Source: Zygnema cylindricum
Lineage: Eukaryota; Streptophyta; Zygnematophyceae; Zygnematales; Zygnemataceae
Reading direction: 5' to 3'
Assembly: GCA_037447655.1 (NCBI GenBank)
Contig: JBBHKE010003016.1
Location: forward strand, 1-64,000
DNA: 64,000 nucleotides
Within the stretch, counting starts at the first letter, position 1; every line of letters starts with the position of its first letter. Positions 5,419 to 62,927 of this stretch are shown here, piece by piece. Under the pieces are notes generated by a model. The model searched no databases, was not told the origin of the DNA, and was given only the letters and a program-made list of their open reading frames with translations. The translations under genes and the position numbers were made by a program.

Positions 5419-5442
5419 TTTTTAAACTTTAAAAGTGAAGCA

Positions 5443-5460
5443 CTGCCTGCTCCGATACCA
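5443..5460 (-). other. primer binding site of copia 1
   Basis: Minus strand reads TGGTATCGGAGCAGGCAG two bases inside the 5' LTR. Its first 12 bases differ from the classic plant initiator-Met PBS (TGGTATCAGAGC) at one position. Confidence 0.85.
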
Positions 5461-5462
5461 AT

Positions 5463-5968
5463 TGTAAAATATACCACTGAGATGGTATGCAGCGGAAGAA
5501 AAAATAAATACACACACAAAATGGCCACAAAAAATACTTTATATAAAAAGATGGCCGAAGCCTTTTTTACAAGGCTTTTTCCCTTTCCTCTCACTCTTCC
5601 TTCTTTACTCTATCTATCCCAAGATAATGTAAACTGTGATACTAAGCTGCAGCAAAACGAACAACTTAAATAGCCTCCTAACTAACGTGCAGTGCACGAC
5701 AAGCAAGGTAAAGGCCGCGTCACTCATAGTGAGACTTGAAGGAAGAAGAAAGCGCGCAGAAGAGTGCAGCGTGCTTTTCTCCTTCGGGAAGAGAAGAGAA
5801 GGTAAGAGAAGATTTCGTGCGCACTGTACCACGAACCTTCGTATGTATGTTTTCGTACGCCATACGCGCACGAAACATTAAGTGTACGGTTCAAATAAAG
5901 TGACGTCGACGCGAACCGAAATATCGCGCGCGTCCACTATTAGACGATTCACAAATTGAATCGTAACA
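5463..5968 (-). repeat. 5' LTR of copia 1
   Basis: 506-bp terminal repeat homologous to 143-646. In the minus-strand sense it starts TGTTACG and ends TTTTACA, directly followed by AT and the primer site. Confidence 0.85.
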
Positions 5969-12629: not shown

Positions 12630-14624
12630 TTATTTTGAATATTCGTAAACTACAACTTCGTTCGTTTCCGATCCACAGGCGACTAATCCTCCCGCACTCG
12701 ATCCTTTCACGGCCAATCCCACAAAATTTCTCACATTATGATGCTCCTTGAGAATCGCCACTGGCTTGTTATGGTCCTCTCCTCCTCCTCCTCCTCCTCC
12801 TCTTCCTTCAGGTGTCATATTCCCATTTGTATCACCCTTCCCTCCTCCTCCTCCTCCTCCTCCTCCTCCTCCTCCTCCCACTACTGCCGAGGGCACCGGA
12901 TGTCTCCCTCCAGTCGCCGGTCCTTTTCTCACATCGCTCACCGGTCTTCTCATCGAAGACATCACGTCCCACAACTGTATCGTACTATCAATGGATGCGG
13001 AAACCAACAAAGAAGGTCCCATAAATCGAACATAACTGGCTGTCCTGGAATGTCCAAAATAACTCTCAATGGGTTCGCTCATTTGGCGCAAATCGTAAAG
13101 ATGAACTCCTCCTCTCTCGGCACTCGCTATTGCTAACAAATGATCCGCAGCGGGATTAAACTCGGCACAACAAACCGCTCTAGCAGATGGAGTTTTCAAA
13201 ACTGCCGCACTCCGTTCCATGTTCGCTCCCCAAAGTCGTACCGTTCCGTCGTCCGAAGCTGAAGCACACATGTTTGTCCGTTGAGCGTAGTCAATGCTCC
13301 AAACTCTCTGCCCCGAGTGCTCATCTCTTTCACAAACTGTCAATCCTTTCTCCAAATCCCATTCTGCGACAACTCCGTCGTAGTCTCCGCAGGCGATTCG
13401 AGAGGATCCTCCGGGAACCCATTTTACACTGCTTAGTTTTGCCGGGGTACAAATAGTCGCTTGAGCCGCGGCTTCTCTCTCTATCAAAGGTGTCCCCGGC
13501 CGTCCTATGGAACTGAGATTATCCATTTTCCGTTTTCTCGAAGCCTGTTTCCTCTCATTCCGTCTCCGTTCAATAAGCTCGTCATCTTCCTCGTCCAACC
13601 AATCCTCCTCATCGCTGCGATCCAGGTCTCTCTCTTCCTCTCCGCCTCCCACCTCTCTTTCCCCGTCCAGCATCCTACTTCCCCACTTCCTCCTTTCCCT
13701 CCTCTCTCTCTCCAACCTCAGCTCCGCCGACCAATCCAAAACTGCCGCCATGGAGTAGATCCGAACCTTCCTCGCAATTCCCCCCGTGGCGAAAAACTCT
13801 CCCGCTAGATCGAAATCTACGGTCCCGATCACATCTGACGATCCACAGTAACTGTCACCTGATCCCAAAGAAGCTTCCACCTCAAATCTCCACTCCCATC
13901 TCCCACTCTCCTCCCTCTCCGACGCCCCAATCCCCAACCCCTTCAACCCATTTTCTCCAGCCGCCACCGCCGCCTCCATGGCTCTCCAAGAATCTGTCTT
14001 CCACCCCCATTCCTCTGCTTCTCCCCCTTCCGAATCCTCTACCTCTCGCGCTTCCGAGCCTGCCTGCCCTCCCTCCTCCCCCTCCACGTCACTGTCCGAA
14101 TCCGAGGCCTTTGGGAACAAGTCTCTCTCTGCCCTCTCTCCCCCCTGACTCATCTTCCCCTGTCTCTCCTCCTTACCTGTGACACCTGTCAAAATCTTAT
14201 CCACGCTATTTTCCACCGGGTGCACTTTTCCCCCTTTCATCCATTTTCCCCATCCCCCCCACACCCACTGTTCCCGGACCTCGCCCGGGCCTCCCCACGT
14301 GACGTCACTGGCCTGGCATCCGCGGCCGCTCCCTCCCTCCCCTTTCCCCGGACGGATGCAGACCGTACAGCTGCACATTCCGTACGATTCCGTACCACAC
14401 GCCAGCATGGCAGGAGGCGATCCGATGGCGAATGCGGCTCCAGGTGACAGTATGACGTCAGCATCCATGGAGGCTTCGGGCTCGTCCGAGGGAAGGCAGG
14501 GCACGGATTGGTCTTCAGGACACGTGGCGACATTCATGTGCATCCATTCTGCGGCCATGAGGGTCTTGGAGGTGTTGACACGTGGCACCACCTGCGGTGG
14601 ACGAGATTCCGAGGCAAGCTGCAT
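12630..14624 (-). CDS. RUP: RUP-type WD40 repeat protein (repressor of UV-B photomorphogenesis family)
   Basis: 664 codons. Residues 1-240 are a long, low-complexity, acidic extension. The WD40 propeller begins at about 243 (WEWRFEVEAS), followed by DVIGTVDFD, FFATGGIARKVRIYS, CTPAKLSSVKW (about 392), GDYDGVVAEWDLEK, DEHSGQRVWSIDYA, ASDDGTVRLW, AVCCAEFNP, GHSRTASYVRF, SIDSTIQLWD and RNFVGLAV...ACGSETNEVVVYEYSK. The ATGGIARK...CTPAKLSS signature favours RUP over COP1 or SPA, and there is no RING or kinase domain. An Arg/Glu-rich insert (about 300-390) and two poly-Gly runs (about 583-596, 608-615) interrupt loops between blades. Known role: RUP proteins bind the UVR8 photoreceptor, promote its re-dimerisation and dampen UV-B signalling. 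The start is uncertain; Met 23, 29 or 53 are alternatives. The last blade lies beyond the stop in the same frame. Confidence 0.85.
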   Translation of the reverse strand: MQLASESRPPQVVPRVNTSKTLMAAEWMHMNVATCPEDQSVPCLPSDEPEASMDADVILSPGAAFAIGSPPAMLACGTESYGMCSCTVCIRPGKGEGGSGRGCQASDVTWGGPGEVREQWVWGGWGKWMKGGKVHPVENSVDKILTGVTGKEERQGKMSQGGERAERDLFPKASDSDSDVEGEEGGQAGSEAREVEDSEGGEAEEWGWKTDSWRAMEAAVAAGENGLKGLGIGASEREESGRWEWRFEVEASLGSGDSYCGSSDVIGTVDFDLAGEFFATGGIARKVRIYSMAAVLDWSAELRLERERRERRKWGSRMLDGEREVGGGEEERDLDRSDEEDWLDEEDDELIERRRNERKQASRKRKMDNLSSIGRPGTPLIEREAAAQATICTPAKLSSVKWVPGGSSRIACGDYDGVVAEWDLEKGLTVCERDEHSGQRVWSIDYAQRTNMCASASDDGTVRLWGANMERSAAVLKTPSARAVCCAEFNPAADHLLAIASAERGGVHLYDLRQMSEPIESYFGHSRTASYVRFMGPSLLVSASIDSTIQLWDVMSSMRRPVSDVRKGPATGGRHPVPSAVVGGGGGGGGGGGGGKGDTNGNMTPEGRGGGGGGGEDHNKPVAILKEHHNVRNFVGLAVKGSSAGGLVACGSETNEVVVYEYSK
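12778..12878. repeat. CTC/CCT trinucleotide microsatellites inside the WD40 gene
   Basis: Two (CCT)n tracts (about 12778-12801 and 12841-12878). On the minus strand they encode uninterrupted glycine runs inside a propeller loop, between the IQLWD and RNFVGL strands. Such repeats vary in length by slippage but stay in frame. Confidence 0.95.
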
Positions 14625-17733: not shown

Positions 17734-18469
17734 TACATCGCGAATCGTAATTAGAGTAAATAACGCTAATTCGGTCGCCCTAAATTTTGACTCTATCACC
17801 TTAAGTAGAGTAAATGATTAAAATTTATTCATTATACTATTTAAGGTAAGGTTTAATTAGTGTAAAAAATATAATATAAGATCTTTTTAAATAGTATAGA
17901 GAACGGACGACGTCTAATCGTGCAGAATTATACTTTTATAAGTAAGAAGGTACAAATAATGATTTAATAGAATCGCGCTCGCACGTGAAATCGCACTAAA
18001 CAAAAATCAATCACATCGAAAAAAAAATGTTCGCATAACTCTCATCCGTCGATAGCATTGTCGTCAGTGAGAACATTAACTGACATTCAACGCGACAAAT
18101 AGTCCTAACGTCATAATGACGTCAAAACTATACAGACTGACAGATTTTGTGCGTCTACGTAATTTAGTGTTTATAATTTCAGCGCGGATAATTATTGACG
18201 ACATAACCTAATATCATAAAAGTCCAATTCGTACGGATTTTGACTTTTTTTCCGCTAGTTTCGTAAATTTCGTAAAATTCGTACGTCTCAAATTGTACGG
18301 AAAATTGTACGGACATTTAAAAAAAAAAAGACGTTGCTTCATTTTTTGCTCGCGAATTTTCCTCCACTCTTTCATAAAGAAGCCGCCATTGGAGACGCCA
18401 TAAATTCCTCCAGTACAAGGTGTTCAGTCGAAAAAAACAAATATATTTTATAGGCATAACAAGAAAGAA

Positions 18470-20056
18470 GTGGATGCAGCATGGGCAAAGGCTTTATTTG
18501 CCAATGGCTTCTCGTTTAGACTATTAGAAGACCAATATTTTAAGGCAGCGATGAAGAAAATCGGGGAGATAGGGCCGTCTTACAAGTTACCTCACCGAAA
18601 TACCATAAGAAATCGACTTCAGTCTGAGACGAAAGCAACGGTCACTGACGATTTGGCAAGCTACCTGGAGACCATGAAAATTATCGGTGCCTCCATCACA
18701 TCAGACGGTTGGACAGTCGTTGATGACACGCCTCTTTTGAACATTCTCGCAGTCACCCCCAAATGAGATATGTTTCTCATGGCTGAAGACACTAGAGGGC
18801 AAACCAAGGAGTTTGAATACATTTGTCAAGTGTTAGAGAAAGCAGTTATTGCGGTAGGGGTGGAGCATGTGGTGAAAGTTGTGACAGATTTTGCTCTTGT
18901 GAACAAGGCCGCCGCCTCGTTGCTCATGGGAAAGTATCCTTCCATCATATGGACGCAATGTTCTACCCACGTATTGGACCTAATGTTAGAGGATTAGGGT
19001 AAGTTGTCATTTTTTTCAACACCTGTCCGAGAAGCAAATGAGGTGTTGAAATTTATTACGAATCATCATATGACTACAACTTTGTTCAACAAAATTTCAA
19101 AACTTAGGCTTTTGAAACCTGGAGAGACTAGGTTTGCAACAAATTTTATCATGCTACAGAGGTTTTTACAGGTGAATGATAGCTTGGAGACCTTTATGTT
19201 TCACGATGCTTACAAGCACTAGTTAAGCAAGTCTACATACAAGTCAGAGGGTGCTAAGATTAAATGCCTCATCTTGAACCCGGAGTTTTAGACGAGAGTG
19301 ACTGAGGCTGTGACAGTTTCAGAACCTGTGGTGCGGATGATGAGAGAGTGCGACAAAGGGAGCCCAAATGTGGAGAACGTTTATCATGGTTTTTACAACG
19401 TCGGTGAGTTCTTGGTGAAGTTATCGAGCAACGGAGGAGCGCGAAATTATGAAGGTCTGCAAATTTTGGAGGAGGTGAAGGTGTCTTCATCGCCACATGG
19501 GAGATGGCACACAACCCCCATATATGTTGTCGGCTTTGTACTCGATCTTGAGTACCAAAGTGATGACTATGGTCAACTTTGAAATGTGAAAGTAATGGAA
19601 GGTTTTCAAATACTGCTTGATAAGATGTTACCAAATTTGGAGGACCAGGCTGCTCCCTACAATGAGTTGTCTAAGTATAAAGGTTATGAGGGCATATTTG
19701 GGAGGGAGGTGACAAAGACGTGTGCTAAGCAAATGCCAGGCTGGAAGTGGTGGCAGCAGTTTGGGGCTGTCACCCCTATCTTACAGAAAGTAGCAATTAA
19801 GATCCTTGCCCAGTGCACAGTTTCCAGCTCATGTGAGAGGAATTGGTCAAGCTACGACCACATTCACTCTAAGAAAATGAGCAGATTGACATCTAAAAGA
19901 GCTAATGATTTGGTTTGGGTCTTTAGCAATCTCATATTATTAGAAAGCACCAGGGATGTTAGTTACGAAGAGGAAATGGTAGCATGGGAGGAAGAGGAAG
20001 GGGAGGTAGGAGAAAAAGAGTTTGATGAAGACATGTTTGACATAGATTTAGAGTAA
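18470..20056 (+). pseudogene. hAT (DUF659) transposase pseudogene
   Basis: One plus-strand frame reads from a probable splice acceptor (TTTTATAG at about 18450) to the TAA at 20056. It carries VDAAWAKALFANGFSF, GPSYKLPHRNTIRNRLQ, ITSDGWT, CSTHVLDLMLED, KPGETRFATNF and the C-terminal dimerisation block SSCERNWSSYDHIHSKK...RLTSKRANDLVWVFSNL. Five stops lie in this same frame: TGA 18764, TAG 18995, TAG 19220, TAG 19289 and TGA 19580. No frameshift is needed. At least the stop after NPEF and the one after YKH sit where the family usually has Trp, consistent with TGG-to-TAG changes. The N-terminal BED finger is not visible. The product would be a cut-and-paste transposase, now inactive. Confidence 0.9.
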
Positions 20057-26034: not shown

Positions 26035-26911
26035 TGGTCTCCATTGACCCACAAAATGAGCAGCCTATGTAAAGCCTCTAGGATAATATTTGCCCCTTCC
26101 ACTTTCCCACTAAATAAGTGCCGCCCAGTCACACAAATATTCTGACCACCCTCACCACTGTGAGGAGAAGACTCCCTTGAGTCAAACGCAAAAAGAATCA
26201 TTGAATTTGCTCCCTTTAGCATTAAGTTATGGCTGGTCAAATATGACCTTTATAGTTACAAGCTCTCTTAGAGAGAGGTACCTAAATATCACTAAGTCTT
26301 GGTCTGCCTACTCACGACTACCTACTACTAAACCATAGTCCAATAGGAACACTATATAGTACAAGAAGGTACAATTGGAGATGTACTTATTGTATGACCA
26401 TTGTACGACATGGTCTACACCGTGACACTTGTCATATCGGGAGCCATGGTTCCTCCTCCCATCTTCTCGGGTATCAAATAATGTGGCGCCACGTGGCACC
26501 GCGTAACGCTATCTCCAAATGACGCCAAAATCTCACTTCGCGTGGCGGCTACAATGTCGGCCGTCTGATCAAAACCTATTTTACACGGCTGAGATTCGCG
26601 TAGATGCATGAATTGCTCTTTTTGGTTAGTCGGTTGTTTAATTAACTGTTGCATTAATGTTTATATATCAATAAACCCGTCACGTGTATCGTTTCGATAA
26701 CTCTTTAGTGGATAAGGCTTATGCTATATACTAGTTCACAAACCCAGATTCAAATCTGGACTTAGGCAAAATTTTAGTAAAATATGCTTTACTTCAAAAT
26801 CTGCCACTTTCTACATATGGCGGCAGCCATGGCGTGCCTTTGATCCTCACTCTCTTTCTTTAAAGTAAAACTAAAATATAGAAGTGAAATATTAATTACC
26901 TCTTTTCAACA
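26035..26911 (-). repeat. 3' LTR of copia D
   Basis: On the minus strand it starts TGTTGAAAAGAGG after a purine tract (26912-26924) and ends near AATGGAGACCA at 26035, where the RT pseudogene resumes. It aligns with the LTRs at 31594 and 39419 (shared CAGCCACGCGAAGTGAGATTTTG-type region, TATATAGTGTTCC, GACTCAAGGGAGTC). Antisense to the LTR, 26701-26759 contains a tRNA-like stretch with a GATTCAAATCTGG B-box. Confidence 0.75.
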
Positions 26912-28540: not shown

Positions 28541-28724
28541 TGTTGGATTGGCACGTGAAGCTGGTCCAATACGGGGTAGAATATGGAAATATCCATACTC
28601 GAGCCGCCCGTAATAAATGGGTACGGACCCGCCAGTCTCAACATCGAGCTGGTGGCACAGTGGTAGTGCGTTCGCAGCTGAAGTGAAAGGTCCCAGGTTC
28701 GAACCCTGGCCGGCTCAATTTTCC
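28541..28724 (+). mobile_element. truncated TRIM-like LTR with tRNA-like module (third copy)
   Basis: Starts TGTTGGATTGGCACGTGAAG and aligns with the LTRs at 32681 and 32968 through the tRNA-like part to TTTTCCC, where copia D protease sequence resumes. The last ~45 bp of the LTR are missing. The tRNA-like section is the best preserved of the three copies. Confidence 0.7.
28646..28716 (+). other. tRNA-like module (A and B boxes) within the LTR
   Basis: 71 nt that fold as a cloverleaf: acceptor GAGCTGG/CCGGCTC (one G-T pair), a D-arm containing TGGCACAGTGGT (A-box consensus), and T-arm CCAGG-TTCGAAC-CCTGG with a perfect B-box GGTTCGAACCC. The anticodon loop AGCTGAA lacks the universal U33, so a functional tRNA is unlikely. 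The Pol III promoter elements look intact. Confidence 0.7.
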
Positions 28725-28729
28725 CATTC

Positions 28730-31689: not shown

Positions 31690-31835
31690 CGCACTTGTCG
31701 TTGTCACTAAAGGTTGAAGAGGGAGCTAGAGCCATACTTGTCGTTGTCAGTGAAGGTTGAAGAGGGAGCTAGAGCCATGGCGAGGGAGCTAGAGCCATGG
31801 AGGGAGCTAGAGCCATGGCGAGGGAGCTAGAGCCA
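31690..31835. repeat. GAGGGAGCTAGAGCCATGG minisatellite in LTR
   Basis: Five or more copies of a 16-20-bp unit around GGGAGCTAGAGCCATGG, one including the longer ACTTGTCGTTGTCAGTGAAG context. Other LTRs of this family in the window have only one copy. Confidence 0.85.
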
Positions 31836-32680
31836 TGGCTCCTGTGCTGTGCATATAGAGACAGGCAGTTGTTGTTGAAAAAAGGAAATTAATAATTCAC
31901 TTCTCTATTTTTGTTATATTCTAAAGAGAAAGAGAGTGAGGATCAAAGGCACGCTATGGCTACCGCAATATTTAGAAAGTGGCAAATTTTGAAGTAGATG
32001 ATATTTTAACAAAATATTGCCTAAGTCCGAATTTCAACCTGCGACTTCTAGATTTCATATAGCCAGGCGCCTTAACTATTAAGGCCCTACAAAAAGATAC
32101 ACGTGATGGATATCAAAGGTAAATAAACATTAACAAAACGGATAATTAACACCAAACTAATGAAAAGAACAATTCATGCACGTACGCGAATTTGAACCGT
32201 GTAAAATATGTTTTGATCGGACGACCAACATTGTAGCAGCCACCCAAAATGAGCTTTTGGCGGCATTCGGAGATAGTGTCACATAGTGCCACGTAGCGCC
32301 GCATTATTTGATACTAAAGAAGATAAGAGGAGGAACAATGGCTCCCAATTTGAGAGGTGTTACCTTGTAAACTATGTCGTACATTAGACATACAATAAGT
32401 ACATCGCCCATTCTACCTTCTTGTATTATATAGTGTTCCTATTAGACTAAGGTTTAGTAGTAGGTAGTCGTGAGTAGGCATATCAAGACTTAGTGATATT
32501 GAGGCACCTCTCTCTAAAAGATCTTGTAAATATAATGGTCATTTTTGACCAGCCACAACTTACTGCTCAGGGGAGCAAATTCATAGATTCTTTTTGCTAT
32601 AGACTCAAGGGAGTCTTCATTTCATAAGGGTAAAGGTGGTTAGAGTTTTTGTTTGCCAGGGTGACAATTATTCTTGCTGG

Positions 32681-32909
32681 TGTTGGATTGGCACATGAAT
32701 GCCGGTTCAACATGTGGCAGAATGTGATAAGTCACACTTGAACCCGCCTAAAAGAAACAGGTACGGACCCGACAGGCTCTACATCGATCTGGTGGCACAG
32801 TGGTTAGTACGCTAACAGCTCAAGTTAAAGGTCCCACGTTTGAGCCCTAGTCGGCTCACTTTTTGCTAGTATGGGACATACGCAATCCCGGATTTCACGG
32901 AAATCAACA
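32681..32909 (+). repeat. TRIM-like 5' LTR
   Basis: 229 bp, TG...CA. Shares GTCACACTTGAACCCGCCTA and AGAAACA-GTACGGACCCGA blocks with the 3' LTR. About 8-10 bp near the start are absent from the 3' copy. Confidence 0.8.
32786..32857 (+). other. tRNA-like module in TRIM 5' LTR
   Basis: 72 nt aligned to 28646-28716: TGGCACAGTGGTTAGTACGC D-arm (A-box) and a degraded B-box CGTTTGAGCCC. Acceptor ends are GATCTGG and TCGGCTC. Confidence 0.6.
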
Positions 32910-32924
32910 TGGTATCGGAGCCAG
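32910..32924 (+). other. primer binding site of TRIM-like element
   Basis: TGGTATCGGAGCCAG immediately after the LTR's terminal CA. Complementary to the 3' end of plant initiator-Met tRNA except at one position in the first 12. Confidence 0.8.
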
Positions 32925-32954
32925 CGGGGTTGCGGATGGTGTGACCGACCTTCG

Positions 32955-32967
32955 CGTGAGGGGGGGG
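32955..32967 (+). other. polypurine tract of TRIM-like element
   Basis: CGTGAGGGGGGGG run directly before the TGTT start of the second LTR, the expected location of a polypurine tract. Confidence 0.65.
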
Positions 32968-33188
32968 TGTTCGTGAACGCCAGTTGAATAGATGGTAAAA
33001 TGTGATACGTCACACTTGAACCCGCCTAAAAGAAACAAGTACGGACCCGAAAGGCTCTCCATCAAGCTGGTGGCACAGTGGTTAGTGCGCTGACAGCTCA
33101 AGTCTGAGGTTCAAGGTTCGAGCCCTGGCCAGCTCACTTTTCCCTAGTATGGGACATTACCGAATCCCGAATTTCAGTGAAATCAACA
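32968..33188 (+). repeat. TRIM-like 3' LTR
   Basis: 221 bp starting TGTTCGTGAACGCC and ending TTTCAGTGAAATCAACA, with the same tRNA-like module and GTATGGGACAT block as the 5' LTR. Confidence 0.8.
33064..33135 (+). other. tRNA-like module in TRIM 3' LTR
   Basis: 72 nt: acceptor AAGCTGG/CCAGCTC (six of seven pairs), D-arm GCAC-AGTGGTTA-GTGC with A-box TGGCACAGTGGT, and B-box GGTTCGAGCCC (consensus). The loop AGCTCAA would place CUC as anticodon but has G at position 33, so it is probably not a charged tRNA. Confidence 0.7.
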
Positions 33189-33265
33189 GCATAAATACAA
33201 AAGGGTCAAGGTTATCTTAGAGGCTTCGTGTGAACTGCCTACTCTGATGAACCATGGAGGTCTCA

Positions 33266-39418: not shown

Positions 39419-40050
39419 TGTTGAAATTAATACTTCTTTAAGGATTTTCTAGGTCTAAAATGAAATGTAGAAAAGAAGTCGAGGCTAACTCCTATCTTCA
39501 ACTTCCACACTTGTCGCAGTCATTGAAGGTTGAAGAGGGAGTTACAGCCATGGCAGCCTGTGCTTTCTATAGAGAGACAGGCAGTTCTTATTGAAAAAAG
39601 ATAATTAATAGTTCACTTCTCTATTTTAGTTATAATTTAAAGAGAAAGAGAGAGTGAGGATCAAAGGCACGCCATGACTGCCGCCATATTTAGAAAGTGG
39701 CAGATTTTGAAGTAGATGATATTTTACCAAAATATTGCCTAAGTCCGGATGGATTTGAACCTACGACCTCTAAATTCCACATAGTCGGGCGCCTTAACCA
39801 TTAAGCGATAGGAAACGATACACGTGACGAGTTTCAAAGATATACAAATATTAACGAACCGACTAATTTACACCAAACTAACGAAGAGGAACAATTCAGG
39901 CACGTACGCGAATCTGAACCGTGTAAAATATGTTTTGATCGGACGCTAGCATTGTAGCTGCCACCCAAAGTGAGATTTTGGCAACATTTGGAGATAGCTT
40001 CCCGCGGTGCCACATGGCGCCGCAATTTTTGATAATGGAGAAGATGGGAG
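39419..40050 (+). repeat. 3' LTR of copia E, truncated
   Basis: Starts TGTTGAAATTAATACTTC after the polypurine tract. Homologous to 31594 onward up to the GATAATGGAGAAGATGGGAG point at about 40050, where it jumps into RNase H sequence of another element. Antisense tRNA-like stretch at 39738-39815 with B-box GGTTCAAATCC and D-arm GCTTAATGGTTAAGGC. Confidence 0.8.
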
Positions 40051-40394
40051 GCTCAGTATATGGCCTTTTGTTCTGCAGTGAAAGAGTTGATGTGGATCAA
40101 GTCCTTGTTTTAAGAATTGGGGTATATGACGGAGGGAGTGCATGAAGTTTTCTATGATAATCAAGCTGCCAATTGCTATTGCAGCCAATCCAAAACTTCA
40201 TTTCAAAGCTAAACATATGGACATAAGATTGAGCTTCGTGAGGGAAAAGGTTGAAAACAAATTTGTTAATCTTGTGTATAAATCCGATCAAGTAATGTTG
40301 GCTGACATGATGACCAAACCTGTGCCCTCTCCCAAGTTAAAAGGGAAAAATATGGATTAAAAGAAAAATTAAAATTATACTAGAAAATTAAAAG
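40051..40394 (+). pseudogene. copia F RNase H end and polypurine tract
   Basis: Plus-strand remnant reading AQYMAFCSAVKELMW, then over shifts a YDNQAA remnant, KHMDIRLSFVREKV and ADMMTKPVPSPKLK. It is followed by an A-rich purine tract and the LTR at 40395. All upstream parts of this element are absent. Confidence 0.8.
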
Positions 40395-46016: not shown

Positions 46017-46830
46017 TGCAATTCTGTGTCCTCCATTGGACTACAGAATTCAAGAAGCCTGTAGATAGTTATTAACTAACCCACTTTCAATGGCAACCAC
46101 TGCTACCCAAGCAGACAAGCAGACAATCTGACTGCACCCCTGTGTAGCTTGGACTCCTTTGAGTTTGTAGGAAAAACAATATTTGAAAACGCCCAACCAG
46201 GCAATAAGTTATGGGGTGGCAAAGATGTTCATTTTACAAAAACCCTCAAGGAGAGAGGTGACAAAAAAAAAACACTAAGTCCTGATTCCCTCTAATAGCT
46301 CCTATCTACTCAAGTACGGACCAATTGTTTTGTTGTACTGTTCCAGAAAGTACTACTGCCGATGTACCTTTATACGACAAATGTACTACAAGGCTATTGC
46401 GTGGACGCGTGCCCTCTTTTTACTTGTTTATAGGTTCCTCGGAATTCCCGCGACCAAATGTGATCTCTCCACGTGGGGCCATCTCATGCTATGTCACAAA
46501 AAGCCAAAGTGACCACTCCGAGATTTCGGCGATGATGTGCGCCGTTGGATATGAACCGAAATGCAATCTCAGCCGTTATAAATACTTGCGCAATATTCGT
46601 TTCGCTGTCGAAACAAAATAAGTGGTATCCGTTTTGAAATAGTATCGTACTTCGTACTTTACAAAACTGTATCTATGCATGCTTTATACAGTTTTAGTTA
46701 AATGAATTCCTTCATTCTTAAATAAATATATATCTATCATACCTTATAACATTTAGCATTGGTCCTAGTCTAATAGGATAAAGCTGACTGCTACCGGCCA
46801 ACTTGTCGGACAGCAGGAACAGTTGTTCTA

Positions 46831-47820
46831 TGACAACTGGTGCAGGTGGAGCTGCAGCAGTAGTGGTAGAAGTAGACATAGCTTAAGCAAAAGCTTTCCA
46901 AGAAGTCCTCACAAAACATTGTAAATCACCAGTCTAACACTTCACAGTTTTACTAAAATTTACTACACTATAGACCCGGACTCACATATCCAATTAACAC
47001 AAAACTCAGCACAGAAGAACCTCAACATATATACTGTTAACTCCCAAAGTTACAACCATATTCACCTAGTAGACCATAAGATACATGACCTACAAGTTTC
47101 CCACAAACTGCCTTTTTTTTTCTTTATCTCAAAATTGGATACAAGAATATTTCTAAGTCCTAATCTTTATACTATGAGAGAGCATCTACAACCTATTAGC
47201 CAATCAAATGTCAGTACCCAGAATAGTAGTACTGTACGATAGTACGACAAGGTACACTAGTGTACTTCCAAAAACCTAAATCCAACTAGCCTAAAAGTGA
47301 ATAGTGAAACACTATTTCCTAAAGTGCTACGCTACAAAAACAATCTCTTCAGGTATTTAACAATCTGATGTCGTACACATAATGTTGCTTAGTTAGTCAT
47401 CAACCTCAAATTCTTCCAACCTGCTGTGGTAAACTTGTACGACTATCTGGGACGCTTACGAAGCTCCTCGTCATCTGTGGTCCCCCTCAGAATTCTCGTC
47501 GTTAATCTGATACGAATCAACGTCTGATATTTGTCGTTTGGTATCAGTGTTCCCAGATGTCTGGTTTAATTTCCGTCTTCCCGATCCGACGAATTCAGTC
47601 GTCCGATAGATGACATGTGGCCATGTCCATTCCCCATTTCCTGCACTGTCTAAAAAGCCGACGCGTGTATATGTGACCGTACTAATACTCTTTGAGAAAA
47701 CATTCTACTGTCACACTATTTAAGGTAAGTATTACATTTCAAACTACACCAAAAATATTCTAAGTACTTAGGCTTCCCTCACAGCTCTATATACTAAAGA
47801 CAAAGCTTTCAAAAACAACA
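46831..47820 (-). repeat. 3' LTR of copia B
   Basis: 990 bp, closely similar to 51987-52974 over its whole length. In the minus sense it starts TGTTGTTTTTGAAAGC and ends CAGTTGTCA. The last ~45 bp are identical in type to the first gag codons of the 5' side. Confidence 0.88.
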
Positions 47821-47843
47821 CTCCCCTAAAGCTTTAGTCTCAG

Positions 47844-48647
47844 TTACTCAATTAGACCAATAGCCTTTCTGCAAAACTGTAATTTAGGTGCAGGAAGAGC
47901 TTTAGTTAGCATATCTGCAACCATGTTTTCATCCGGCAAATAGCACATTTTTATGACCTTTCCAAGCACATTTTCACAGACAAAATGCAGTCTGATATCC
48001 ATATGTTTGCTTTTAAAGTGATGGCTGGGGTTAGAGGCTATGGCAATTGATGCATGGTTGTCGCACCAGATGACTTGAGGACCAGTTTGCATATGTCCCT
48101 ATTCCTGCAAAAATACTTTTACCCACAAGAGTTCCTTGAGGGCAGAACTTGCTGCCATATATTCGGATTCCATAGTTGACTGGGTAGTGACCTTTTGAAG
48201 TTTGCTGCTCCACCACCAGGTACCATTTCCAATCTGTAGAACAAATCTAGTGGTGGATTTCTTGTTCGGCATGTCTCCATAACTCGCATCACTCCAAGTT
48301 TTCAGCTTGACTTCTCCTCCTCCGAGGACAAGTTTAAGATTTTGAGTTCTTGCCAAGTACCTCAGGACTCTTTTTGCACCTTCCCAATCTGCCTTTTTTG
48401 GGTTTTGAAGACTCCTACTCAACGCTCCAACCGCTGCTGTCACATCCGGCCTAGTACAGTTCATAAAATAGATAAGAGATCCAACTACCTGCCTATATGG
48501 TTTTGAGACCATCAACTCCTCCTCCCTTAACTCTTGCATCTCATCAACTAGAATGCCTAACTCAGAGTCAACTCCTTCTAATTTCTGTCTGTATTCCATA
48601 GGAGTGACACATCCTTTAGCCTCTTTCATATCAAACTTTTCAAGCAT
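47844..48647 (-). pseudogene. copia B RNase H
   Basis: Minus-strand MLEKFDMKEAKG...GSLIYFMNCTRPDVTAAVGA, AKRVLRYLARTQNLKL, TWSDASYGDMP, STMESEYMAASSALKELLWVK (48099-48647), then after one stop VIWCDNHASIAIASNPSHHF and ADMLTKALPAPKL (47844-48092). Near-complete domain; one nonsense codon separates the halves. Confidence 0.88.
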
Positions 48648-48659
48648 GGAACTTATAGC

Positions 48660-49720
48660 CTCCTTTTAAGTTAACATGATTTGCCTCTTACTTCTATCTC
48701 CCTCTACTTGTATTCCTAAAATATATTTGGCCTCACCGAGGTCTTTTATCTCAAACCTTGATTTCAGTGCTCTCTTGATCCTATTTATTTCATCCATGGA
48801 TTTGCTGATAAGAAGCAAATCATCTACATAAACAGCAATATACAGTTTTCCATCCTCCCCTTGTAAAACATAATCAGAATGGTCTTAACTAATTCTTTTG
48901 AAACCTAGTTTGGTGAGGAACTCATCTACCTTTAGGTTCCATTGTCTAGGGGCCTGTTTAAGCCCATACAAGGATTTCATGAGTTTACATACTAGATTTT
49001 CTTCTCCTTTTTCTACATACGTTCCTGGTTGCTGCATATAAATATTTTCTTCCTGCTCTCCATGAAGGAACGCTGTCTTAACGTCCATCTGATGGACATC
49101 CATGTTTTCAATAGCAGCTAAACTAAGTAAGATTCTGACATTTGGAAACCTTACCACTGGAGAGAAAGTTTCCTCAAAGTTGATTCCCTCTTTCATATTG
49201 TAATCTTTGGCCACAAGTCTGGCCTTGTACCGTTCAATCGTGCCATTAGGATTTAATTTTACTTTAAAAACCCATTTACTTCCGATGGCTTTTCGGTCCG
49301 GAGGTAGATCAACCAGCTCCCACGTTTAGGCTTCCATTATAGACTTCATTTCATCGTTTGCCGCTTCAATCCAGTGAGTTCTTTCTGGTGAAGAGAAAGC
49401 CTCCCGGATGGTCTGAGGTTCTCCTGGGTTAGCAGAATAGGCAAATTGGGAACTTGATTGGAGGCAACTGCTAGTTCTCTTTCCCCCCTGAAATTTTGAG
49501 GCGGAGACCGATGGAAGTCTTGCGTTTCTTTGCTGTCTTGCAGCTGGCTGTGACTGATCCTGTAACTGTTCTCCTTGCTCCATTTGTTGTTGAAGGGGAA
49601 CTTGATTTCCCGAGATCACCGGTTCTGCAAGAGGTTGCTGAACACGTTGGTAGAACACTGTTTTTCTGTGTGTCAAAAATATCATAGTCCTGAGATTTTT
49701 CGGCAACTTTAGTATCTGTT
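48660..49720 (-). pseudogene. copia B reverse transcriptase
   Basis: Minus-strand SPERTHWIEAANDEMKSIMEA (about 49330-49390), then a stop in place of Trp in the T-W-ELV motif, then [59 protein letters not shown] (48885-49214). Another stop, then AVYVDDLLLISKS near 48830 (catalytic pair intact) and DLGEAKYILGIQV. Proline/glutamine-rich linker at 49471-49706. Confidence 0.87.
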
Positions 49721-49815
49721 ATAGAAAAAATATCTGCTGATTCCGACTCATCTTTTATAATAATGTTCCTAGACACTACTATCTTCAGCTTTTCTAAAAC
49801 ATAAACTCTATAACC

Positions 49816-50385
49816 CTATGAATTTTCATCATACCCGATAAGAATACCTGGTAGACCTTTAGGTTCCATTTTCCATGTATTTGGGGATGTGTTTAGAATA
49901 AAGCATTTACTGCCAAATACCCTGAAATGACTTACGTCTGGTTTCCTACCTGTCCATAATTCAAAAGGGGTAGTAATGACTGAACGAGATGCAATCCTGT
50001 TTTTGATATAGACTGCACAATTTGCGGCCTCAGCCCAGAATTTCAAATCTATATTCTTTTCAGCTAGCATAGATGTAGCATATTCTCTAATTGTCCTATT
50101 TAATCTCTCAGAAACACCATTTTGCTGAGGAGTGTAACGAACTGTTAGCTGACGACTAATCCTTTCATTTAAGAGAAAGTTTTCAAATTCTTTTGACATA
50201 TACTCTCCTCCATTATCCGATCTGAGTTCCAGAATCGGAACTCCATGAAGTATATCAACCCAAGCCTTGTAATGTTTGAAGTGGCCGAACACTTCACTCT
50301 TTTCTTTCATGAAGTAGACTTTTGTGAACCGAGAGAAATCGTCTGTATAAGCAACCATGAAACGAACCCCCCCAGTAAATGGCAC
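49816..50385 (-). pseudogene. copia B integrase core and C-terminal part
   Basis: 189 open codons: MPFTGGVRFMVAYTDDFSRFTKVYF, ELRSDNGGEYMSKEF (second D), QQNGVSERLNRTIREY (E), FWAEAANCAVYIKNR and PFELWTGRKPDVSHFRVFGSK. The first catalytic Asp region lies just upstream across a stop (50400-50418). Confidence 0.88.
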
Positions 50386-50418
50386 CTGTGCTGGTCCCAG
50401 ATCATCCGAATGAATAAG

Positions 50419-51084
50419 TTATAAGACTTTTGTTGATTTGTGATCTGATTGCTGGGGAAAATGCAACTTAAGAATCTTGCCTATAGAGGAACCATCACAT
50501 GTTTTTAGTGGCTCATTTGTTAGTGAAACACCCTCTATTTTACCAACTTTGACCATTTTTGTTAAGCTATCATAGCTGACATGGCTTAGTCTTTTATGCC
50601 ATAATTCATTCAGAGATTGTACACCAGAATAGAGAACATAATTTTCTTTAGATTCATCCATATCCATACGGTACATTTTGCTTGCATCTCTAGTTCCTGT
50701 GACTGCTATTTTGCCTAGCTTGCTCACAACCTGCCTACCTCCTTTAAGGGAGACCTCAAAACCTTTACTCTCAACCAAAGATGTAGAAAAAAGGTTCCTT
50801 TTATAATCAGGAACAAATAAATCATTATGAAGTGTTCTTTCTACTGGTTTCCCTCCTACATCTACCAGCAATGAGGCATCACCTTGTGTAGATGTCTGCA
50901 CACTCATTCCACAAGCATAGTAAATATTTCTTGCAGGTGTTAAATTCAGATTGGTAAAAAGTGACTTGTTCCAGCATATATGTGTTGATGCTCCGGTGTC
51001 CATTATCAACCCAGTGTCCCTGGAGCCTTCCATAGTCGCTGCCATTGCAAATAGCTCCGAATCATCCTGCTCAATGAAGCTCAA
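50419..51084 (-). pseudogene. copia B protease and GAG-pre-integrase
   Basis: 221 open codons in the same frame as the integrase. Protease GLIMDTGASTHICW (DTG intact), VERTLHNDLFVPDYKRNLFSTS, then NELWHKRLSHVSYDSLTKM and CDGSSIGKILKLHFP, where the usual Cys of the second zinc pair has become Ser. Ends at a stop before LIHSDD. Confidence 0.87.
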
Positions 51085-51199
51085 GGACTCATCCTCCTCA
51101 ATGACAAATGATAAAAATAAAGAGGTGTTTTGTAACTTCTGACCAGAAAAGCTTTGGTTAAATTGACTTTGTTGCCATCCTAGCCTATATAATCCTGTC

Positions 51200-52035
51200 T
51201 CATTTGCCTTCTTTAGTTTAGGACAGTACCTATAACCATGACCTCTTTCTGAACAGTAAAAACAAGCAGTGAAAGACTATCTATTCTGACCTTGATTAAA
51301 CTGTTTAAACTGACCCTGATTCTGATTAAACTGATCGTTTGCGGATAAATTGATTTCTTCCCTGATTAAACTGTCCTTTCCTGTCAAAGTTTGTGTTCAA
51401 TGCTTCTAAGCTCTTTTCACCACTAAGCATCTTTGACGTAGACTCTCCTTCAAATATAATATTAATAGCTAACTGAAGAGTCCAACTAGAGTTATCATTC
51501 TTTTTCAATTCAGCAGATGCATCTTTCATGCTACTAGGAAGACCCCTAATTATCAGTGCAGCTTGCTGGAATTCAGGAAAAGATCCTCCAGCACAAGCAT
51601 GAACATCAATGAGAGCTCTGAAATTGTCGGTATACTCGGCCATTATTCCCCCCGAGTATATGTAGTCCCATATTTTTCCAACCAACAGGAGTTCTTTTTG
51701 AACATTCGCTTTCTCATAAGAAGTATTTAGAGACTTCCATATGTCGATCGCCTTTTTCATTTTGATCCTCGACATGACCATGTTTTCCGAAAGGCAAAGT
51801 TTGAGAGTATTTTGAGCCTGTGAATTCTTCTTCGCCCACGTTATGTCAACTTTATCAAGTGATCCATCCAGAATGTCCAGCATACCTGCATTTTCAAAAT
51901 GTGACTCAACCATATCCGCCCAGTAAGCATACTTCTGACCGTTAAAAATAGGAATTCTTGAGGACAGGCCCATAACCTATTACCTATAACAACTGATGCA
52001 AGTGGAGCTGCAGCAGTGGTGGTAGAAGTAGACAT
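51200..52035 (-). pseudogene. copia B gag
   Basis: Start MSTSTTTAAAPLASVV at 52035, lying inside the repeated (LTR) sequence. After a short shift GLSSRIPIFNGQKYAYWADMVESHF (51326-51973) continues through KIWDYIYSGGIMAEYTDNFRAL and AALIIRGLPSSMKDA. A zinc knuckle remnant (CFYCSERGHGYRYCPKLK) lies across stops near 51210-51270. Confidence 0.85.
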
Positions 52036-52974
52036 AGCTTAAGCAGAAGCTTTTTAAGAAGTCCTCACAAAACACTGTAAATCACCAGTCTAACACTTCA
52101 CAGTTTTACTGAAATTTACCACACTATAGATCCGGACTCACAGATCCAATTAACACAAAACTCAGCACATAAGGACCTCAATATACATGCTGTTAACTCC
52201 CAAGGTTACAGCCAAATTGACACAGTAGACCATAAGATACATGACATGCAAGTTTCCCAGAAACTGCCTTTTTGTTTTCTTATCTCAAAATTGGATACAA
52301 GAATATTTCTAAGTCCTAATCTTTATACTCTGAGAGAGCATCTACTACCTATTAGCCAATCAGATGTCAGTACCCAGAATAGTAATACTGTACGATAGTA
52401 CGACAAGGTACACTAGTGTACTTCCAAAAACCTAAATCCAACTAGCCTAAAAGTGAATAGTGAAACACTATTTCCTAAAGTGTTACGCTACAAAAACAAT
52501 CTCTTCAGGTATTTACAATCTGATGTCGTACACATAATGTTGCTTGCTTAGTCAGCAACCTCAAATACTTCCAACCTGCTGTGGTAAACTTGTACGACTA
52601 TCTGGGACGTTTACGAAGCTCCTCGTCATCTGTGGTCCCCCTCAGAATTCTCGTCGTTAATCTGATACGAATCAACGTCTGATATTTGTCGTTTGGTATC
52701 AGTGTTCCCAGATGTCTGGTTTAATTTCCGTCTTCCCGATCCGACGAATTTAGTCGTCCGATAGATGACATGTGGCCATGTCCATTCCCCATTTCCTGCA
52801 CTGTCTAAAAAGCCGACGCGTGTATATGTGACCATACTAATACTCTTTGAGAAAACATTCTACTTTCACACTATTTAAGGTAAGTGTTACATTTCAAACT
52901 ACACCAAAAATATTCTAAGTACTTAGGCTTCCCTCACAGCTCTATATACTAAAGACAAAGCTTTTAAAAACAAC
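51987..52974 (-). repeat. 5' LTR of copia B
   Basis: 988 bp partner of 46831-47820, with small substitutions scattered along it. Its outer end reads AACAAC followed by the solo-LTR sequence GGGAATCGGG. The expected terminal TG of the inner end reads TA here. Confidence 0.87.
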
Positions 52975-54710: not shown

Positions 54711-55049
54711 ATACATGCTTATGGCTTTCTCCTTCCCTTTCTCTCCATCCATGATGATGGTTTTTCCATCGTCCTCTGCTTTCTCTAAGGCTCTAGACAC
54801 TCTTCTGCTCAGTCTTGATGCTCCTAGAAACTGAGCTCCTCAAAAACCTAGTAGGGCTACAATGCTCGTTGCAAAACACCTCACATATCTTGATAATATT
54901 CCCTAAAGTTGCTTTTCGACTAAGGCACTTCTCATTATAGTTTCCCAATACATAAACCCTTTTCCCTCGAAAATGGGCATTTGAGAGGGTGGGCCCATAA
55001 AAAAAAAAAGTGGGAGCTCCATAGCTCAACTTAAGTCTCTTGGATAACC
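54711..55049. other. unassigned
   Basis: No gene recognised; short minus-strand frame at 54793-55152 without motifs. Confidence 0.4.
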
Positions 55050-55620
55050 TTGATGCACTTTGGTTTGAAAAAAAATACAAGCCACCTAGGCAAAAAATAT
55101 TTCTGACCGACTTCACCCCAGTAAAGGTAAGACTCGTTTGAGTTTCCTGCAAAAAGAATCACTGAAAACGCTCACCTGAGCTGAATATTATGGTTGATCA
55201 AAGTCAACAAATATATACAAACGCTCTTTGGGAGAGAGGTACTAAGAAAACTTCCTAAGTTCTAAATTCCTACTTACAACCCCTATCTAGTGACCTATTT
55301 ACCAATCATAATATTGTAACGTACAATTCGTACAGGAGAAAGTACACTAGCTGCAGTACGATATTTGCGACTTTTGTACGACACCAATAAAATTGATGTA
55401 TCTTCCATGTCCGACACCATGGATTTGTTGTGTCTTCTTTTTTTGACCTTTGGAAACTTGCCACGTGTCAATCTGTCGGCTCTTTGGATGAGCCGCCAAA
55501 AGAGCCATTCCAATATGCCCGCGCCCACGCGGTTTGTCTGCTTATAATTTTCCAATCAATGTTGTCCGTTCAATTCCGGCAGCTTGCAGAATGTTCTTTG
55601 CGGCTTTTTGTACTTTTCCA
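55050..55620 (-). repeat. LTR fragment of family L, reverse orientation
   Basis: Shares GCAAAAAGAATCACTGAAAAC, GACTCGTTTGAG-type and CTCCTATCTA-type blocks with the reverse complement of 41000-41390, then diverges. No coding region is attached. Confidence 0.6.
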
Positions 55621-57680: not shown

Positions 57681-58346
57681 TGTTGTTTTGGAAACCTTAA
57701 GTTCTCTCTATATCTTGCTGCTATGTTGCCATGCTGCGCTTAGTTTGACATCGCAGCTAGAAACCTTGAGCACTCTACACTTGTTGCTGTGCTGCTATGG
57801 TGCTCTGATCCGACATCGCAGCTGCGCTGCTCTAATATCACAGCTGCGTTGACAGATCATAGCAGTCATAGCAGTCATAGCAGCTATAGCAGTCTGCGCA
57901 AGAAAGGTGTTCTGAATAGGAGTCAGTTTGTGTGAAGATAAATTGACGGGGACATGATTTAGTGAGTATGTAACTCGAAAGGGAGTACACAGATTCGGTG
58001 CACTTTAGGCACACGTGTCGGTCCGTGAGAAAGTCAAGTTTGGTTGTTCTAGAAGAAAAGATATAGTTACATTTGAGGACAAAATTTATACGTGGAGGTT
58101 CATCTTTGGTGATGAAAGAATACGTGGAAAGCGGACGAAGTCCGCCGTCATTTTTGGAAGAGGAGTATTGACTGTACCGTCATTTCAGCGGACGAACTTT
58201 AACCGCGTACTATTTCATTTCTAGCAACTGTCTGATTGGTGGAAATAATTATGTGCATTCGATGGTGGGATTTTTGTTAATGAAGAGTAGTGTACCATTT
58301 GACCACGCTAGTTGTAGTACGGTGTGATCAACCGTAGGCTCACTTG

Positions 58347-58354
58347 TATATATA
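58347..58354 (+). promoter_or_regulatory. TATA box in copia C LTR
   Basis: TATATATA followed by AGGACTTAG, conserved at the equivalent site of the 3' LTR (about 63593-63600). Transcription would be expected to start about 30 bp downstream. Confidence 0.6.
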
Positions 58355-58395
58355 GGACTTAGATTACTTTAGGAAAAGTAAGATTGTTGTGTAAG

Positions 58396-58416
58396 AAAAA
58401 CTGCGAAGCAGTTTTT
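58396..58416 (+). other. hairpin in predicted R/U5 of copia C LTR
   Basis: AAAAACTGC, loop GAA, GCAGTTTTT: a perfect 9-bp stem ~40 bp after the TATA box, present unchanged in the 3' LTR at 63643-63663. It would lie near the 5' end of the transcript. Confidence 0.75.
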
Positions 58417-58613
58417 CGGTGTGTTTGAATTATAAGATCATTGTGATCTTTTGGCAGAACTTTGTGAAATCCTGCATGTGGGTTCTTTGATGTATATTTT
58501 ATATTGTAGAAAATTTGCAGGCTTTGCGTGTGTCTGGTTTGTTTGGGGCTTCATTGTGAAGTTGGTTGTTTGTGGGATTTCGTGAGAGTTTCCTCTTTGC
58601 ACAATTGATTATC

Positions 58614-58772
58614 ATGGCAATTGCCGGTGCTTCTTCATCTTCTTCAGTGGCACCAGCTGCCTCAAATCAACAGGTTATGGGCCCACCCTCACGGATCCCG
58701 GTGTTTAATGGGCAAAATTATCTTTATTGGGCGGATTTGACTAAGTCTTATTTGAAACAAGTGAAATTATAG
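58614..58772 (+). pseudogene. copia C gag N-terminus, ended by TAG
   Basis: ATG at 58614 (MAIAGASSSSSVAPAASNQQ) is preferred over the upstream Met at 58566 because sister gags start with a short Ser/Thr/Ala-rich leader. PPSRIPVFNGQNYLYWADL follows. TAG at 58770-58772 interrupts the frame, which continues in phase. Confidence 0.88.
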
Positions 58773-58775
58773 TAT

Positions 58776-61700
58776 GTGATTTCGGGTATTCTTCCGGATA
58801 CGGATCCGGAGTTTGGAAAGAAAAGTGAAGATGCATTGCATGTGTTGAAGTTACTTTTGTCAGAAGATCTTAACATGACATATATCAATATTTCTACGGC
58901 ATCTAAAATATGGAAGGCCTTGAGTGAATCTTATGTCTTAGCTAGTGAGCAGAATGAGGTTGTTACTGCTGGAAAAATTTGGGACTATAAATATACTGGG
59001 GGTGACATGAACTCATATTGTAATGGCTTGAAACTTCTATTATCGGAGAATGCATGTTCCGGGGGGAGTTTTCCTCCTTATCATCAAGCTATGATTCTAA
59101 TGAGAGGGCTTCCTACTGAATATAGAGGAGCAGTGGAGCAGCTAAGATGGTTAGAGAAGAGTAAATGGAATATAGCAGTCGCTCAGGCTTATATCCTAGA
59201 CGAAGAGGCAACTCAGATAGCATTAAATGGTGGTCAATCAGTGGTTGCTAACAATGCACAGACATATAAGCCAATTGGTTTTTCTGGAAACAGAAACTTT
59301 ACCCCCAATCCGAATTATAGGCAATATGATAGGTGTGTCTATTGCTTTGGTCAAGGTCATGTTTTCCGGCTGTGTCCGGCATTTATAAAAGCGTGTGAAA
59401 CAGGAATTTATTGTACGGGAGAGAGGGTGCGATCGGAGGATTCATCACCAAAATTTCCGACATCAAAACTGCCGATTAAAAATGCGGCATTCCTTGCATT
59501 TGATGAGACGTCACAAGATGAACGACCGGAAGAAAAGAAAGATGTGGTCAGATTTCCGCAATCGGATGATGACGAGTTCTTTGCTCTTGCAAAAGATCTC
59601 ATGGAGGGACCTCGAGAGAACGGATGGATTATGGACTCCGGATGCTCCTCCCGCATGTGCGGCAACCGGGCTTATTTCAAAACGCTTACTCCAATTCCCA
59701 CTCGTCGCATTTATTACGCGGATGACAGCGGTGTGGAGGCTACGACAAAGGGAAGCGTGGAGTTAGCATGTGACATCAATGATCAGATTGTAAAGAGAAC
59801 CTTGCATGATGTTCTCTATATCCCAAAGTTTACAAAAAAATTGTTTTCCACTTCGGTAGCAGAAATGAAAGGTTTTGAAATTTTACAAAAGAATGGGAAA
59901 AAGGTAGTAAGCAAAGATGGGAAGGTAGCTTTGGTAGGAACTACAGGCCCAAACTTGTTGTACCGTATGGACTTGGCTAATAAAATTGACTTTGCATACT
60001 CTAGTGTCCTTCCGGAAAATGTTTTGTGGCATAAGAGGCTCGGTCATGTTCATCATGAAAGGCTTGATAAAATGGTAAAGCAAAATATGATAAATGGTGT
60101 TGAATTAGGAGAAATAGATTCCCATGTATGTGATGGATGTGCTTTGGGAAAACTTCATAAGCTGCCACTACCTCAGACAGCGGATAACCGGACAACGGAT
60201 TTGCTGCAAATTATTCATTCGGATGTATGGGGGCCATCAAAAGTTCCTTCACTCAGTGGCAACCGGTTTTTGGTCACTTTTACGGATGACTTCTCAAGAT
60301 ATAGCAAGGTTTACTTTATGAAAGAAAAGAGTGAAGTGCTCACTCACTTCAAGCATTTTCGGGTATGGGCCAAAAAACTTCATGGGAAACCGATCCTTTC
60401 CCTTCAATCCGACAACGGAGGGGAATATATTTCTCATGTATTTTCTGAATACTTAAAAGACAATGGCATTTCTCGGCAATTTACAATTCCTTATACTCCG
60501 GAACAGAATGGAGTATCCGAAAGACTGAACCGAACTCTAACAGAAAGTGCAAAATCTATGTTACTAGATAAAGGAATAGATTTCAAATTTTGGGGTGAAG
60601 CTTTCTCGTGTGCGTCGTATATTAGAAATAGAATAGAGACTAAAGCAGTAAAAGGGAACACACCATATGAAGTGTGGACCGGAAGAAAACCGAATGTTAG
60701 TCACTTCCGAGTTTTTGGGAGGAAATGTTTTATTTTGGATAATCTCCCTATTTCTAAGCTTAGTCCAAAATCGGTTATAGGAATTTTTATGGGTTATGAT
60801 GATGAATCCGTGGGCTATAGAGTATTTAATAGGGATAGGAATACTTTTCAGACTGCTAGAAATATTCAGGTTAAAGAAGAGAGCAGATCGGTAGATGTTT
60901 TTGGTATGACAGATTTTGAAAAAGATTCCAAAATCAAAGAATATGTTATTTTTGAAAGTGTTCCTCTCGCTTCTTCTAGTCCCACTTTGGACCCTCCGGC
61001 TGGTCCCCTTGTGGAGAATCATCCTCCTCCTCCACCACCTCCTCCTCGGCGGCAACCTACGGATCCAACAATTCCAGCCTCAGATTTTCCGGGGGGGAAA
61101 AGGCAAAGCAGCAGGCTGCGACATTGCGAAGCTGCGCTATTTTCTGTCGGATCAGTGGATCTGACTGAAAACTGCGACGCTGCGAAACTGCGAAGCTGCG
61201 ATGCTGCGAAGCTGCAAAGTTGCAACGCTGCGAAGCTGCAAAGCTGCGACGCTGCGAAGCTGCAAAGCTGCGACGTTGCGAAATTGCGAAGCTGCAAAAC
61301 TGCTCTATTATCTGCCAGCATGATGGAACCGGTCACAATACAAGAAGCCTTTTCAGCTTTGAAAAAAGATCAATGGATCGCTGCGGCTAACGATGAAATG
61401 CGATCGATAATGGAGGCTCAAACTTGGGAGCTTGTGGAGCTTCCACCAGACCGAAAAGCCATCGGCTGTAAGTGGGTCTTTAAAGTAAAGCTGAATCCAT
61501 ATAACTCTATTGAAAGATATAAGGCTAGGCTTGTTGCTAAAGGCTATAGTCAGAAGGAGGGAATTGACTATGAAGAGACTTTTTCTCCGGTTTTCCGATT
61601 TCCAACTGTTAGAATTTTGTTATCCTTAGCGGCCATTGAGAATATGGAACTACATCAAATGGATGTTAAGACAGCTTTCTTGCATGGAGATTTAGAGGAA

Positions 61701-62904: not shown

Positions 62905-62927
62905 GAGAGTCTAAAGGTTTTGGGGAG

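Follow-up and report, generated by a model that had tools for sequence, protein, structure and literature searches.

A 508-bp terminal-repeat element with tRNA-like modules in its long terminal repeats in the zygnematophyte alga Zygnema cylindricum

Anatomy of the element and its tRNA-like modules

The stretch of DNA analyzed here (the window) comprises 64,000 nucleotides of the Zygnema cylindricum genome (assembly GCA_037447655.1, contig JBBHKE010003016.1, positions 1 to 64,000) and contains, at positions 32681-33188, a 508-bp element in which two direct repeats with TG...CA ends flank a core of 58 bp (32910-32967). The 5' long terminal repeat (LTR; 32681-32909, plus strand) is 229 bp long, starts with TGTTGG and finishes with CAACA; the 3' LTR (32968-33188, plus strand) is 221 bp long, starts with TGTTCG, finishes with CAACA, and is without 9 bp near its start that are present in the 5' LTR as well as in a second, partial copy of the repeat at 28541-28717. 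In a blastn search against the whole window, the 5' LTR showed 84.2% identity over 215 bp to positions 32974-33188 (E values of approx. 1e-61 to 1e-63). In an alignment of the full-length LTRs, 10 columns were gaps, and 36 of the 220 aligned positions differed, 21 by transition and 15 by transversion. When the window was divided into 276 successive segments of 229 bp, 6 of them, including the LTR pair, had a direct repeat within 1 kb that scored at least 100 bits; the rest of these 6 are accounted for by one repeat pair at 39.2/40.1 kb and an array of tandem repeats (8.0-8.7 kb).

The core consists, in this order, of a primer-binding site (PBS), approx. 30 bp and a polypurine tract (PPT). The PBS TGGTATCGGAGCCAG (32910-32924, plus strand) directly follows the CAACA of the 5' LTR and is of the initiator tRNA-Met type, as its start presumably matches the 3' end of the initiator tRNA-Met; the PPT GAGGGGGGGG (32958-32967, plus strand) directly precedes the TGTT of the 3' LTR, i.e., the spacing of both sites to the LTRs is zero. 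No stop-to-stop frame of at least 120 amino acids overlaps positions 32681-33188. The initial annotation of this DNA, made from the letters alone, had described repeats of 229 and 221 bp with TG...CA ends around a 58-bp core with a primer site and a polypurine tract; these coordinates and lengths were exact, and ends, primer site and tract all read in the sequence as described. With two TG...CA LTRs, a total length below 1 kb, a PBS and a PPT that adjoin the LTRs, and no coding capacity, the element has the structure of a terminal-repeat retrotransposon in miniature (TRIM).

The 3' LTR carries a tRNA-like module at 33064-33136 (plus strand), which matched the Rfam tRNA family (RF00005) with 38.9 bits (gathering score 29 bits) and includes a box A (33071-33082) and a box B (33115-33125); ARAGORN called a tRNA-Glu(ctc) at 33064-33137. 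The module of the second copy (28646-28717) scored 53.6 bits in Rfam and was called tRNA-Gln(ctg) by ARAGORN, so that two of the three modules score above the gathering level. The third module, in the 5' LTR (32786-32858, plus strand), is decayed and was recognized by alignment to the other two; it had no Rfam match at E values up to 10. Its box A TGGCACAGTGGT (32793-32804, plus strand) is made up of the same 12 letters in all three copies, and its box B reads CGTTTGAGCCC (32837-32847) where the 3' LTR has GGTTCGAGCCC. Of the earlier claim that each LTR holds a cloverleaf with both boxes, the part on the 3' LTR thus stands and the part on the 5' LTR, with its altered box B and missing Rfam match, does not; a cloverleaf in each LTR is true of the origin of the repeats, not of their present state. 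Directly after each module lies the only run of four or more T in the respective LTR, i.e., TTTTT at 32860-32864 in the 5' LTR, which resembles a terminator of RNA polymerase III (Pol III), and TTTT at 33138-33141 in the 3' LTR (both plus strand).

When the three modules were placed on the tRNA structure, standard pairs occupied 87.3% of 63 cells, as compared to 21-35% when the partners were slid by 1-3 columns, and two anticodon-stem pairs changed on both sides among the modules with pairing kept. These values would favor a module that acts as RNA and not as a promoter, i.e., as a tRNA mimic for packaging, as a substrate for end processing by RNase P/Z, or as a source of tRNA fragments. With three sequences only, however, 85 of 500 shuffles attained the observed paired share, 114 had at least as many doubly changed pairs, and 47 came up to the covariation score; in addition, the module of the 5' LTR is too decayed to be found with Rfam; we consider a role of this kind improbable.

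Insertion site and second copy

The element interrupts an older Copia-type repeat. The part to its left (31873-32672) recurs at 26113-26911 (minus strand; 81% identity over 803 bp), the stretch at 55083-55240 is related more distantly (69% over 158 bp), and both relatives run through the target uninterrupted, without the 508-bp element. The related unfilled target sites are at 26085-26115 and, in the more distant relative, at 55045-55075 (both minus strand; limits approximate, counted by hand). With the flanks joined, the distance from GATTCTTTTTGC to ATC(T/C)(T/A)AGAG(G/A)CTT is 108 letters in the filled site as compared to 103 in each empty site; with closer anchors, these values are 31 as compared to 26 and 26. 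The exact place of the 5-letter gap varied with the aligner settings and the net length was constant. As both empty sites are shorter than the filled site by exactly 5 bp, the 508 bp entered as a single unit, which added 5 bp beyond its own length; this is the size of the target duplication made by LTR integrases, as predicted for one LTR-type insertion. The presumed copies of this duplication are gctgg (32676-32680, plus strand) on the left and gcata (33189-33193, plus strand) on the right. The initial annotation mentioned neither the second copy and the two empty sites nor the additional 5 bp and the single T-run that follows each module. Because Copia-type sequence stops directly before the element, the two repeats were also considered as the terminal part of a longer LTR of a Copia; this was rejected, as Copia-type sequence resumes on the other side and two other copies run on without interruption.

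The second copy (28541-28717, plus strand) extends from the start of the LTR through the end of the tRNA-like module and is cut at the T-run that follows. It matches the 5' LTR from the first base (77% identity over 185 bp, blastn) and the 3' LTR with 82% identity over 106 bp. Since its left flank resembles another Copia-type LTR piece (28432-28511 matches 26359-26438, inverted, at 75%), the second copy and the 508-bp element have the same starting base but different surroundings. At 28718-28725, the cut end is joined to a minus-strand Copia protease frame, and the junction shares TTTTCCC with the 3' LTR; this single case could represent either a chance microhomology fusion or the insertion of a terminated RNA.

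The only other copy found in the window is a single unit without core, as would be expected if the 508 bp consisted of two adjacent SINE-like (short interspersed nuclear element) or solo-LTR-like units, or of a tandem duplication, that mimic an LTR pair. Such an origin appears highly improbable, however, as the PBS and PPT are correctly placed with zero spacing, the whole 508 bp along with 5 bp are missing from two related sites, and there is no poly-A or SINE-type tail at either end of the element.

Comparison of the three copies also allowed the conservation of the module to be assessed against that of U3, the part of the LTR upstream of it. At positions where both LTRs agree, the second copy matched in 54 of 58 module positions and in 59 of 83 U3 positions (P = 0.0012; Fisher's test; one of four tests, uncorrected). 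Within the 508-bp insertion, the two LTRs matched each other at 59 of 73 module and 83 of 96 U3 positions (P = 0.40), i.e., both parts decayed alike. Better conservation of the module than of U3 between insertions, with equal decay within one, is what would be expected if an active family had retained its module; the pattern suggests selection on the module for as long as copies moved, and a dead copy at 32681-33188. A pattern of 43 positions fitted to the three copies had no match in collections of virus and prokaryote contigs, which say little here, and a distant search of a phage collection, which likewise says little about this element, also gave no match.

Proposed transcription by Pol III and relation to known elements

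The name Helenus has been given to TRIMs of fungi, animals and plants that have a PBS, a PPT and LTRs with tRNA-like sequences (Kojima 2024, PMC10886601). The initial annotation, which knew of no described family of this type, had suggested a new design; in this respect it was mistaken, as Helenus has the same design. Helenus elements, with total lengths from 311 to 1263 bp, a range that spans the 508 bp found here, are grouped by design, several origins are expected for them, and the name TRIMp3 has been proposed for TRIMs with Pol III promoters (PMC10886601). The 508-bp element fits the structural definition of Helenus, to which it is assigned by its design. Most Helenus LTRs have a box A with TRGCY and YGG and a box B with GGTTC (PMC10886601); in TGGCACAGTGGT, TGGCA differs from the former motif at the fifth letter and TGG fits YGG; box B has GGTTC in the second copy and the 3' LTR, as compared to CGTTT in the 5' LTR. 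The only plant in Kojima's Table 1, from which Zygnematophyceae are absent, is Selaginella moellendorffii; its element Helenus-1_SMo has 5-bp duplications and differs in its LTRs (120 bp as compared to 229 and 221 bp) and internal part (85 bp as compared to 58 bp; PMC10886601).

The element at 32681-33188 is thus very probably a non-autonomous TRIM of Helenus design, which would be driven by Pol III from the tRNA-like module in the LTR and supplied in trans by a Copia helper. Transcription by Pol III is inferred from the boxes and T-runs described above, and Kojima likewise describes it as unvalidated for Helenus (PMC10886601). According to this model, Pol III would bind boxes A and B of the 5' module and start near position 32786; some passes would read through the T-run after this module, copy the 45-bp U5, the core and U3, and stop at the T-run after the 3' module. 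The product would be an RNA of approx. 355 nt with the same tRNA-like stretch at both ends, i.e., the R region. A Copia element would provide Gag, reverse transcriptase, RNase H and integrase in trans; the initiator tRNA-Met would prime the first strand, R would permit the strand jump, the PPT would prime the second strand, and the integrase would insert the element with a 5-bp duplication. Polymerases that halt at the first T-run would yield only a tRNA-like RNA of approx. 80 nt.

A different reading of the same module is that of a passenger in a TRIM transcribed by RNA polymerase II, i.e., a SINE or tRNA piece that landed in the LTR and has been copied along without driving transcription. 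Kojima has proposed that elements of this kind arose when a SINE was inserted into an LTR (PMC10886601), full-length transcription by Pol III would hardly be efficient with the terminator-like T-run in the 5' LTR, and larger Copia-type repeats of the window carry a different, antisense stretch with motifs like boxes A and B. In the repeats at 31820-32672 (plus strand), 26113-26911 (minus strand) and 39535-40051 (plus strand), this stretch includes the A-box-like motifs TGGTTAAGGC, TGGATAAGGC and TAGTTAAGGC and the B-box-like motif GTTCAAATC with variants; it was not reported by ARAGORN or Rfam and is possibly an old SINE or tRNA piece within a larger LTR. On the other hand, the patterns TATAWA and A(A/T)TAAA, crude as they are, are absent from both LTRs and the core, the module is more conserved than U3 between the two insertions (with less marked differences in the direct tests), and the 12-letter box A is identical in three copies. 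We thus regard a passenger as rather unlikely.

The Copia helper proposed for the Pol III-driven TRIM is suggested by the primer site, as its first 12 letters TGGTATCGGAGC are also found at an LTR end in the Copia element at 141-5968 (minus strand; LTRs at 141-646 and 5461-5968, 82% identical). The weight of this shared site lies in its place at the LTR end and not in the bare pattern. A window Copia as parent of the TRIM was ruled out, as only these 12 letters and a loose PPT likeness are common to the TRIM and the Copia element at 141-5968.

Several observations weigh against a Pol III-driven TRIM with a Copia helper. No other core-bearing copy is present in the window, where the second copy stops before the position of the core. 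Only 2 of 5 letters are shared by the flanking 5-mers gctgg and gcata, and at least 3 mismatches in 5 have a probability of 0.03 at 16% divergence and of 0.10 at 25%; recombination between elements was ruled out as an explanation for the unlike 5-mers, as both flanks form one continuous Copia-type sequence with exactly 5 additional bp. The second empty site belongs to a distant relative of the repeat (69% over 158 bp). Direct tests of module against U3 conservation with the second copy gave P = 0.14 for the 5' LTR and P = 0.013 for the 3' LTR, i.e., P < 0.05 in one of two. The bare primer-site pattern (up to 2 mismatches) has 2 matches in the window as compared to 1.47 expected, and 45 of 100 shuffles reach 2. 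Apart from the primer site and a PPT that is alike in general terms, LTRs and core show no similarity to the Copia elements of the window; since no window Copia shares a longer stretch of the core, the helper is named here as a class (Copia) and not as an element. Finally, because most Pol III should terminate at the T-run of the 5' LTR and not reach the core, a full-length RNA would need read-through. The LTRs of Cassandra also hold conserved Pol III terminators (PMC7215508), so that Cassandra faces the same termination problem.

The initial annotation had read the element as a TRIM with a tRNA-like module in the LTR, parallel to Cassandra, and this reading is borne out by the LTR pair, the PBS, the PPT, the lack of coding capacity, the additional 5 bp and the tRNA-derived module. 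Both elements carry a Pol III-type promoter and terminator of a small-RNA gene in the LTR as well as an initiator-Met PBS, that of Cassandra being TGGTATCAGAGC, which is one letter from the primer site found here (TGGTATCGGAGC) (PMC7215508); a "methionine PBS" is also given for Cassandra in PMC10853983. Cassandra differs in having 5S rRNA sequence in place of the tRNA and, according to Kojima, a length of 565-860 bp (PMC10886601). No Rfam match to 5S rRNA was found in the window at the gathering score or at E values up to 10. A 2016 survey of plant TRIMs reports 5S rRNA only in Cassandra, and its main text has no mention of polymerase III, Pol III or a tRNA gene (PMC4717578). Among the papers listed in searches of the literature on Helenus, TRIMp3, tRNA-like LTRs and TRIMs of streptophyte algae (titles and the openings of abstracts, in one case 12 of 826 papers, with most subscription journals outside the collection), there was no further publication on TRIMs that bear tRNA sequences. 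In a hornwort genome paper (PMC8075897), the term TRIM occurs only with other meanings.

SMART (FRetro129) is likewise a tiny LTR retrotransposon with TGT...ACA ends, and its 5-bp duplication and presumed Copia helper correspond to those presumed here; it differs in its total length of 292 bp, 85-bp LTRs and 122-bp internal part, and the term "polymerase III" is absent from the main text of its description (PMC3281118). The core found here is shorter than this internal part although the element is longer as a whole; at 58 bp, it is also shorter than that of the Selaginella Helenus (85 bp), and no record is claimed. tRNA-derived SINEs (SINE2) share tRNA-like boxes A and B and a terminator of T residues with our element. 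By contrast, the module of our element does not lie at the 5' end of the repeat but approx. 105 bp inside it, and the element has primer sites of the LTR type and a 5-bp insertion where SINEs have a tail and target-primed insertion.

If the assignment is correct, Pol III-type TRIMs with tRNA modules, in plants described from a single lycophyte, would also occur in the algae closest to land plants. More tentatively, the element may belong to a zygnematophyte line of tRNA-promoter TRIMs that arose independently of the Helenus elements of Selaginella, fungi and animals, with module and terminator forming the whole of R, so that transcript start, transcript end and strand transfer would all hang on one captured tRNA gene and the core would be reduced to little more than a primer site and a PPT. 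The element provides a test of insertion (5 additional bp as compared to two empty sites) and a simple prediction of transcript ends. Elements of this type also inflate automatic counts of tRNA genes, as ARAGORN calls two of the three modules tRNA genes.

Other features of the window

Two further Copia elements, at 46828-52974 (minus strand) and 57681-63778 (plus strand), are younger, with LTR pairs that are 95.5% and 97.2% identical, respectively; the latter has an open polyprotein frame of 1213 amino acids. A search with Copia protein scored 7990 candidates; the 3 matches with E values of 1e-100 or below all came from Asteraceae (34-41% identity) and were uninformative as to the host.

An open frame of 664 codons at 12630-14624 (minus strand) encodes a RUP/COP1-type WD40 domain and glycine-rich stretches. 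Among the best 120 of 1004 matches, the best (52% identity) is labelled jgi/Mesen1, which we take to be Mesotaenium endlicherianum. In a quick tree of 33 rows (the window gene, its row 49% filled, and 32 of these best 120 of 1004 matches), the gene groups with Mesotaenium, Closterium and one further row with an SH-aLRT value of 94, just under the starred level, and no starred set holds the window gene. Judged by this one gene and a short search, the host would probably be a streptophyte alga near Zygnematophyceae. Frames at 18404-20056 (plus strand) resemble a hAT-type transposase, as recognized by eye.
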